Origin: Acidobacteriota bacterium
GTDB lineage: Bacteria; Acidobacteriota; Terriglobia; Acidiferrales; UBA7541
Direction of reading: 5' to 3'
DNA: 64,000 nt
Assembly: GCA_003225315.1 (NCBI GenBank)
Contig: QHZD01000022.1
Span: 62,001-126,000, forward strand
The notes below the pieces were generated by a model. The model saw only the letters and a list, made by a program, of their open reading frames with translations. It searched no databases and was not told the origin of the DNA. Every line of letters begins with the position of its first letter. Within the stretch, counting starts at the first letter, position 1. Made by a program: the position numbers and the translations under genes. Shown one piece after another: positions 16,731-45,815 of this stretch.

Positions 16731-16815
16731 AGTTCGGTAGTGGTCAGTTTGAATTTTCTTAATCGTGACAAATAGGAGTCAAGATCAAACTGGCCTATTC
16801 TCTAGTTCCTTTTCC

Positions 16816-16844
16816 TTGACGGTTGGCCGCTTCTCTGGTACTCT
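16816..16844 (+). promoter_or_regulatory. Promoter-like block of dispersed element, copy A
   Basis: TTGACG at 16816 and TACTCT at 16839 are separated by 17 nt. No plus-strand gene follows. The surrounding bases (TTTTCCTTGAC, CTGGTAC, TTAGG) match the promoter block at 45411-45451 in order and spacing, so it seems to be part of a repeated element. Confidence 0.45.
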
Positions 16845-16941
16845 TGGCTTAGGTAAGGTTGTCGTTAATCCTACAGCCCCCGGTTCCGCGTCCAAGCCCT
16901 CAACGCAAACCATCAAGCCCGTCGCACAATTTTGGTGCAAC

Positions 16942-17059
16942 CTAAGTCCCTTTAGAATCAACGCCTACAGAGCATGCCCGCAAGTGTTGATTCTAAACCA
17001 CTTACATAAACACTAAGTCCTTTAGATGCAACACTTACCAAAAACACGGGGGAGGGGGT
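16942..17059 (+). repeat. Dispersed non-coding element, copy A (inverted-repeat block)
   Basis: This 118-bp block is strongly similar to 45572-45689, which has the same length. It begins CTAAGTCCCTTTAGAATCAAC and carries arms TTTAGAATCAAC (16951-16962) and GTTGATTCTAAA (16986-16997). It continues with a second CTAAGTCCTTTAGATGCAAC unit and ends in a G-rich run (GGGGGAGGGGG). The G-run stops 1 nt from the stop codon of the minus-strand PilZ gene. Confidence 0.85.
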
Positions 17060-45281: not shown

Positions 45282-45414
45282 ACGCTGCCCTCCCCAGTAA
45301 TACTTCATTTTACTGAACCGGGTTGTGACATATAACCAGCGAGAAGTCAGTGGCGCTAATCGCTCAACTCCTGCAAGCCGCCCAATTGAAACTTACCCAT
45401 CATCATAATTTTCC

Positions 45415-45442
45415 TTGACTCTAACAACCCTGCTGGTACAAT
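45415..45442 (+). promoter_or_regulatory. Near-consensus sigma70 promoter of a very short unit
   Basis: TTGACT (45415-45420) and TACAAT (45437-45442) are separated by 16 nt. A strong intrinsic terminator follows only 29 nt after the -10 box. The sequence around it is shared in part with 16811-16851. Confidence 0.65.
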
Positions 45443-45448
45443 TCGTTT

Positions 45449-45500
45449 TAGGAAAAACTGTATTTGGAGTGCGGGAGCTTGCTCCCGCTTTTCTTTTTTT
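45449..45500 (+). ncRNA. Predicted small RNA of about 50 nt
   Basis: The interval from the predicted start of transcription to the end of the T-tract is about 50 nt and has no open frame. It consists of an A-rich leader (GGAAAAACTGTATTTGGAGT) and the terminator hairpin. It is isolated: the minus-strand TPR gene lies on one side and the repeat block on the other. It is inferred from promoter and terminator only. Confidence 0.4.
45471..45500 (+). terminator. Strong rho-independent terminator
   Basis: GCGGGAGC pairs perfectly with GCTCCCGC over a TT turn (45471-45488), followed by TTTTCTTTTTTT. No plus-strand gene precedes it within 1 kb. Confidence 0.85.
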
Positions 45501-45571
45501 GGCTTGGTTCTCGGCTAGACCGATTCCAGCATCTGTTGAGATTCTGCATTTCTGCGGAATTCTAGCGCATT

Positions 45572-45689
45572 CTAAGTCCCTTTAGAATCAACACTTATGT
45601 GAACTGCCTGTATGTGTTGATTCTAAACCACTTACATTAGACTCTAAGTTCTTTAGATGCAACAATTATGAAAAATAGGCGGTGGGGGG
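45572..45689 (+). repeat. Dispersed non-coding element, copy B (inverted-repeat block)
   Basis: This 118-bp block matches 16942-17059. The arms TTTAGAATCAACAC (45581-45594) and GTGTTGATTCTAAA (45614-45627) are perfect over 14 bp here. The shared CCACTTACAT, CTAAGT and CTTTAGATGCAACA follow, ending in a G-rich run (GGCGGTGGGGGG). It sits 126 nt before pcaF. Nothing else is seen in the 45282-45815 gap apart from the promoter-terminator unit. Confidence 0.85.
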
Positions 45690-45815
45690 TACGCACCTGG
45701 TACAGACCGGGCGCATCCCTGACAGAATAGCCGGGAGCATTCCAGACACTCTGAGCCAAGTGACGCGTGTCAGCGCTCTTCTGTATAAGATAGAGGGGAA
45801 ATTCCAAGGATAACC

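Follow-up and report, generated by a model that had tools for sequence, protein, structure and literature searches.

REPtrons consist of a RAYT transposase gene together with dispersed REPs (PMC3733652). Why cells keep gene-plus-repeat systems of this kind is, in our view, an open puzzle. Attenuator leaders of autoregulated genes are built from a promoter, an early intrinsic terminator and a leader with a G-rich ribosome-binding region, and integron attC sites are defined by RYYYAAC/GTTRRRY ends and the IntI integrase. We analysed a 64-kb stretch of an Acidobacteriota genome (the window; its source genome is called G000 below), in which an earlier note had picked out a composite non-coding element present in two copies. 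Both stretches belong to a real family of some forty intergenic elements in this genome, and our literature searches returned no paper on it. The family probably belongs to a gene-plus-repeat system; the protein concerned is an undescribed one with a zinc knuckle, here named ZKP, and its gene lies outside the window. This associated gene and an intrinsic terminator in the second copy are features beyond those described in the earlier note.

Anatomy of the window copies and their family

Both stretches were read directly, and the blocks were found in the order first reported for them. Copy 1 occupies positions 16806-17058 of the forward strand through the end of its G-run, its 5' end, 10 nt ahead of the -35, resting on an analogy with related promoters; among paralogues with copy 1-type promoters homology begins 10-11 nt ahead of the -35, a point at which copy 1 itself gave no match. 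A sigma70-type promoter at 16816-16844 (TTGACG at 16816-16821, a spacing of 17 nt and TACTCT at 16839-16844; score 11.9) is followed, before the array, by a small hairpin GCACAATTTTGGTGC at 16924-16938, which by eye is also present in L002, in L086 (imperfect) and in contig C184 of the sister MAG G013. The array comprises unit A in forward orientation (16942-16968, with the hairpin 5' arm TTTAGAATCAAC at 16951-16962), unit B as an inverted copy (16980-17005, with the 3' arm GTTGATTCTAAA at 16986-16997) and unit C, again forward (17013-17038, CTAAGTCCTTTAGATGCAACACTTAC), and runs into an A-run and G-run at 17039-17058 (CAAAAACACGGGGGAGGGGG).

Copy 2, on the same strand, spans 45405-45689 through the end of its G-run, with the 5' end placed by the same analogy. 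It carries a sigma70-type promoter at 45415-45442 (TTGACT at 45415-45420, 16 nt and TACAAT at 45437-45442; score 16.2), an intrinsic terminator GCGGGAGCTTGCTCCCGC at 45471-45500, which has a T-rich tail and a stem ending 46 nt after the -10, a hairpin at 45572-45635 made of units A (core 45581-45593) and B (core 45615-45627), unit C at 45644-45669 (CTAAGTTCTTTAGATGCAACAATTAT) and an A-run plus G-run at 45670-45689. When TTTAGAATCAACA was searched for in the window with up to two mismatches, all six matches fell within these two stretches, a number reached by none of 100 shuffles (mean 0.66). Past the G-run of three loci in two genomes (45690-45760 of the window, about 1555-1630 of L046 and about 2060-2120 of L179) stands another intergenic repeat, ACCGGGCACATCCCTGACA ... 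ACCGGGAGCATCCCTGACA, which occurs in variant forms.

The family shares one order of parts, namely, in most copies, a sigma70-type promoter, sometimes an intrinsic terminator, a variable leader, units A (forward), B (inverted) and C (forward), an A-run and a G-run; the units are about 25 nt long, lie in both orientations and number about 2-6 per element, and many copies carry TTATGGTTAACCAG a few bases past the G-run. Distant relatives such as G009 and G010 keep this grammar, as judged by eye, with other letters and other unit numbers. To count copies of the 118-bp block, a covariance model (R1) was used. Of the 76 copies collected, 55 went into it, 21 poor, diverged or redundant rows having been left out of alignment A2, so that R1 leans to well-formed copies. 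At 80 bits or more there were at least 41 copies in G000 and at least 38 in G013. Both are lower bounds, 150 candidates having been scored in each genome out of 730 and 695 at first look, respectively, and the copies include some of the model's own training sequences. In a blast search of G000, a 121-base query matched 75 times at E<=1, all lengths counted, and 40 of 70 candidates were scored. Further genomes were reached both by DNA search (25 of 61 genomes with element matches) and by model (11 of 151), each count including the source genome and one genome outside the genus, and the expectation that many intergenic copies would be met in related genomes was thereby borne out. As judged from these sequence matches, the signal of the element fades beyond the genus. 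The exact DNA pattern was found in 31 contig stretches among named records, all titled Acidobacteria, many of them gp2 and one gp1; the named records of the family are mostly subdivision 2 Acidobacteriota. Viral contigs gave no match to the DNA pattern of the element.

Coding potential had been described as absent, and genes called in this analysis overlapped none of the 41 G000 copies. The strands of the upstream and downstream genes at these copies were +/- in 12 cases, -/- in 10, +/+ in 10 and -/+ in 5, with 4 copies having no upstream call. Rfam 15 gave no match at gathering score in the window, and a single sub-threshold match on the other strand was the only one of its kind among seven related loci.

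The promoter-like block proved to be a genuine feature of the family. Promoter scores of at least 10 were obtained for 31 of 41 G000 copies and 29 of 38 G013 copies, against 61/410 and 61/380 Markov-shuffled controls, 7/41 and 12/38 reverse-strand controls and 5/37 and 5/34 control segments taken further upstream (P 2.6e-8 for the G000 copies versus the further-upstream segments). A score of 14 was reached by 18 copies in G000 and 23 in G013 and by none of the reverse-strand and further-upstream controls. Terminator hairpins with a T-rich tail lay within 110 nt of the -10 at 9 of 31 (G000) and 7 of 29 (G013) promoters, the stem ending 46-56 nt after the -10 in 15 of 16, and were found in 0/31 and 0/29 upstream control windows. 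One compensatory change in a terminator stem was observed between sister loci, and one leader-terminator stretch was identical over about 85 nt in a locus 89% identical overall. The promoters fall into several 5' subfamilies, and within each of these the paralogues become homologous at much the same distance ahead of the -35. A similar IS-like end, which we take to be IS21-like, adjoins three G000 elements 17-18 nt before the -35 (C33:275, L128; C40:52167, L101; C49:314, L132), and another adjoins G000 C34:180 and G013 C168 at 14 nt.

The pairing of the arms, noted at the outset, was confirmed in both window copies (RNA fold z of -3.42 and -3.26 against shuffles). The accompanying proposal of a structured RNA with covarying stems held only in part and weakly, in that the covariation score and the cells with two-sided changes stood above all 500 shuffles and above slides, but the 11 covarying pairs, against a shuffle mean of 10.4, were equalled or exceeded in 234 of 500 shuffles, and the number of pair types was reached by 275 of 500. 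Covariation was not convincing as proof of an RNA, and these pair statistics do not establish selection on RNA structure. The two-sided changes cluster at two pairs, in 14 and 13 of the 55 sequences, and these pairs separate two subfamilies; pairing comes for free because the arms are two opposite-orientation copies of one repeat unit. RNAalifold returned no structure for the full set of 76 sequences.

That the element might consist of two modules was also upheld. At the locus corresponding to window copy 1, G013 keeps the flanks (89 and 95% identical) and the array, and its promoter/leader stretch is unalignable with that of G000 and belongs to another promoter subfamily. Promoter, units and G-run are one element, yet its 5' and 3' halves have been exchanged between loci.

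A zinc-knuckle protein gene beside the arrays

One-sided matches led to a common ORF between the promoter/terminator and the array, that of ZKP. The protein has a CCCH knuckle (C-x9-C-x11-C-x2-H), a helical-looking domain (alignment A5) and a proline-rich tail, the latter two of which gave no family, and the ZKP query gave no convincing match in Pfam, PHROG or NCBIfam. Zf-primase/Mcm10 (PF09329) matched weakly over the knuckle, with a best E of 8.3e-5 and 11 of 29 members at E<=0.1; the first member scored 16.9 bits against a cut-off of 28.8. A profile search of the PDB placed the MCM10 chain 7y01 at E 0.028, ranked after two chains that matched the helical part only. The profile and database comparisons of ZKP returned no recognised catalytic or transposase domain. 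ZKP was found in 23 of the 61 genomes and, at E<=1e-6, in 34 of the 200 genomes sampled from the class (10 of 82 genera), and similar proteins are presumably abundant in Terriglobus and its kin. By profile search no ORF of the window matched ZKP; none was confirmed in viruses and none matched in plasmids. G000 itself has three ZKP genes, or nine by profile, versus at least 41 elements; one ZKP ORF lies around C1:287577-287984.

An array was detected with R1 (E<=0.05) at 17 of 30 ZKP loci, where 0.78 would be expected at the element density of G000. Thirteen of the 17 lay 76-579 nt behind the ZKP match on the same strand, two lay before it on the same strand and two were on the other strand. 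Units could be recognised by eye at nine more loci, behind the gene at L258, L263, L266, L270, L278 and L279 and before it at L261, L262 and L280, and were not seen by eye at L257, L269, L271 and L274. Several ZKP ORFs (L251, L253, L230) end inside unit A. A strict unit pattern, which was written after some of the tested loci had been read and which misses known arrays, matched at 22 of 59 ZKP loci and 0 of 33 control segments, with five matches in the window as background. R1 (E<=0.05) also matched 13 of another 41 ZKP loci, a set that overlaps the first in part of its DNA, and matched none of the six further ZKP-like genes of G000 (L301-L306).

The order of array and ORF differs between genera, and in other genera the array stands in the ZKP 5' leader (L294, L296, L297, L316). 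At four loci of one other family, drawn from three genomes (L299, L300, L318, L319), reading by eye gives a -10 (TACAAT) and a terminator ahead of the ZKP gene, with a G-run 5-7 nt from its ATG; neither R1 nor the strict pattern found units at these loci, and L318 has an in-frame stop before the knuckle. Co-presence of ZKP and element was significant over the 61 genomes (P 1e-4) and not within the genus (P 0.18), and the 98% complete genome G011 gave 16 matches to the element, with no ZKP reaching E<=1e-6.

The reading that we favour, to which we give a probability of about 0.43, is that the window copies are gene-less members of the family descended from a ZKP control/recognition module, as part of a gene-plus-repeat system. 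ZKP, through its CCCH knuckle of nucleic-acid type, would bind the units in DNA or in leader RNA, and at ZKP loci such binding would give autoregulation, with conditional termination at the early terminator and the G-run at the ribosome-binding site. The layout before the ATG at the four loci of the other family suggests a ribosome-binding region as the origin of the G-run and an attenuator as that of the early terminator. Copies lacking the ORF would be non-autonomous, would have spread by a copying route and would then have been mostly inherited in place between close relatives.

Flanks of the element and alternative readings

Orthologues of 30 of the 41 G000 copies were present in G013. Identity fell below 0.55 at -450 to -300 in 17 of 28 orthologous loci with data, and was at least 0.8 at +60 to +350 past the model end in 29 of 30. 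Twenty-four loci could be tested on both flanks over up to 3 kb; cover there was 0.43 towards the promoter against 0.94 beyond the G-run (Wilcoxon P 2.7e-4), and it dropped below one half at 14 of these loci on the promoter side and at none on the other. On the promoter side, inspection by eye showed, among other differences, a HicBA-like pair, a block of three genes, a gene truncated in G013 and, between terminator and array, a small ORF. Other loci showed an exchange of gene blocks or a break common to two loci. The element marks loci of one-sided synteny break, and at many loci of this one genome pair the promoter side appears to gain, lose or exchange DNA, the G-run side apparently staying joined to the neighbouring gene. 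In a comparison of G000 or G013 with G023 or G024 (20 plus 20 sampled copies), homology confined to the promoter side was found in three pairs (G023) and one (G024), and homology confined to the G-run side in four and three; a further pair was too short for a call. With G023 and G024, then, one-sided homology runs both ways and does not repeat the polarity, which rests on one genome pair.

At L125 (the G000:C1:101359 region), by eye, a HicBA-like toxin-antitoxin pair lies upstream in G000 and is absent from G013. A single locus in G024 (L239) has its upstream and downstream flanks at two different G000 elements (L114 and L119), a rearrangement with its break at the element. Enrichment of defence genes on the promoter side was considered and dropped, as PADLOC and Pfam tallies gave no clear excess: with up to three genes per side, PADLOC families numbered 26 among 72 upstream proteins and 42 among 72 of 103 downstream proteins, the former including Argonaute and MzaA and the latter, in the part shown, being mostly PD-T4-6. 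Of the upstream neighbour proteins, one hits class I Argonaute models, at best with 2.8e-168, and one MzaA (4.9e-76); the tally does not assign members, and by reading one of these neighbours is perhaps L120:4779-6224.

The family could be an ordinary MITE, that is, a DNA transposon that is non-autonomous and has subterminal repeats, its transposase residing on another IS, the promoter being an old transposase promoter and ZKP a captured passenger. We consider this unlikely, although it is the strongest of the alternatives. The likeness to a MITE drawn in the earlier note may find some backing in the inverted unit halves near both ends, imperfect and subfamily-dependent as these are, and the defined 5' ends of each subfamily, the inward promoter, the older paralogous pairs at 82-89% identity inside one genome and the few places common to more distant species point the same way. 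Against it, no clean empty site was found among the presence/absence loci compared; moreover, the large share of copies common to the sister genome argues against it, and the ZKP genes adjoin differently spelt arrays in several genera, which is hard to reconcile with a chance passenger.

Rather improbable, in our judgement, is a cis-acting RNA or DNA device kept at each locus for its own function, for instance an insulator or a transcription stop through an R-loop at the G-run, to which the ZKP link would be historical only. R-loop formation at a G-run has parallels in ColE1 and mitochondrial CSBII. By eye the element is more conserved than the surrounding intergenic DNA in three species at one locus, promoter and G-run are kept in diverged subfamilies, and at 19 of 41 copies a boundary of the next gene, be it its start or its end, lies no more than 70 nt from the model end, all of which would suit such a device. 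However, the neighbouring genes lie in either orientation (25 opposite, 16 same), and at one sister locus the array is missing with promoter and terminator kept.

Lower still in our estimate comes a transposase-free two-part system, in which the knuckle protein would recognise the 25-nt units, drive the spread of gene-less promoter-array elements and turn their promoter side into a site of directed DNA exchange, to which the gain of toxin-antitoxin and other gene blocks and the IS-like ends, whose distance from the -35 hardly varies, would belong. Were the transposase-free reading true, the element would be a new kind of genome-shuffling element.

RAYT (Y1_Tnp) loci of four genomes served as a matched control for the ZKP loci. 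R1 arrays were present at 3 of 12, where 0.32 would be expected (P 0.004), and this was not significantly different from the 17 of 30 at ZKP loci (P 0.09). A close same-strand downstream array (<=600 nt, a threshold chosen afterwards) was found at 13 of 30 ZKP loci versus 0 of 12 RAYT loci (P 0.008); at any distance the difference was not significant (P 0.16). Because RAYT loci also exceed the element density and the ZKP difference is not significant, the closeness of arrays to ZKP may partly reflect repeat-rich intergenic DNA. Because of the arrays at 3 of 12 loci, RAYT as the sole driver stays among the rivals. TIR-flanked RAYT-like genes, one of them with a repeat family, are described in Acidobacteria (PMC3733652); nonetheless, the possibility that the units are recognition hairpins of a present or past Y1 transposase (RAYT or TIRYT) is the least probable of those weighed, given that nine of the 12 loci are without an array, that the arrays lie 0.6-1.3 kb from the RAYT gene on one side and once on the other strand, that by eye other palindromes stand beside that gene (of GTAG type at L205, of GGGTGGGGC type at L202 and another at L208) and that the units bear no GTAG tag. 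At L205 (700-2100), L320 and L021, GTAG-type palindromes (TGTAGCTCACCCCTTCAGGGGTGAGG) together with a RAYT gene form a separate REP-like system in the same genome.

Comparison with known systems

If the ZKP-derived module that we favour is the correct reading, the family would be a second, unrelated gene-repeat pairing with a small zinc-knuckle protein in the place of the transposase, and hence an independent case for comparison, in which the repeat itself carries promoters and attenuator-like terminators. It would also give a first lead for the ZKP protein family.

The knuckle of ZKP resembles the Mcm10/primase CCCH zinc finger in its weak profile score, and its spacing presumably matches that of Mcm10. 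The units, by eye, are without an attC-type GTTRRRY end. In common with attenuator leaders, the four distant ZKP loci share by eye the order of promoter, terminator and G-rich leader; unlike such leaders, copies without a downstream gene are dispersed. The element is short, dispersed and free of an ORF, as are MITEs of bacterial IS, and recalls them in its imperfectly inverted ends; it differs in having its own conserved promoter and in arrays that lie close to a gene that is no recognised transposase, and neither a clean empty site nor a target duplication was seen at the loci compared. As in REPtrons, a chromosomal gene has adjoining repeats and many gene-less repeat copies lie between genes elsewhere; here, in contrast, the gene encodes a zinc-knuckle protein in which no Y1 domain and only a weak zinc finger in Pfam were found, the unit consensus carries by eye neither a GTAG nor a CGTC tag, with GTAG palindromes occurring separately in G000, and the element is a module of 250-450 bp with a promoter, a G-run and sometimes a terminator.
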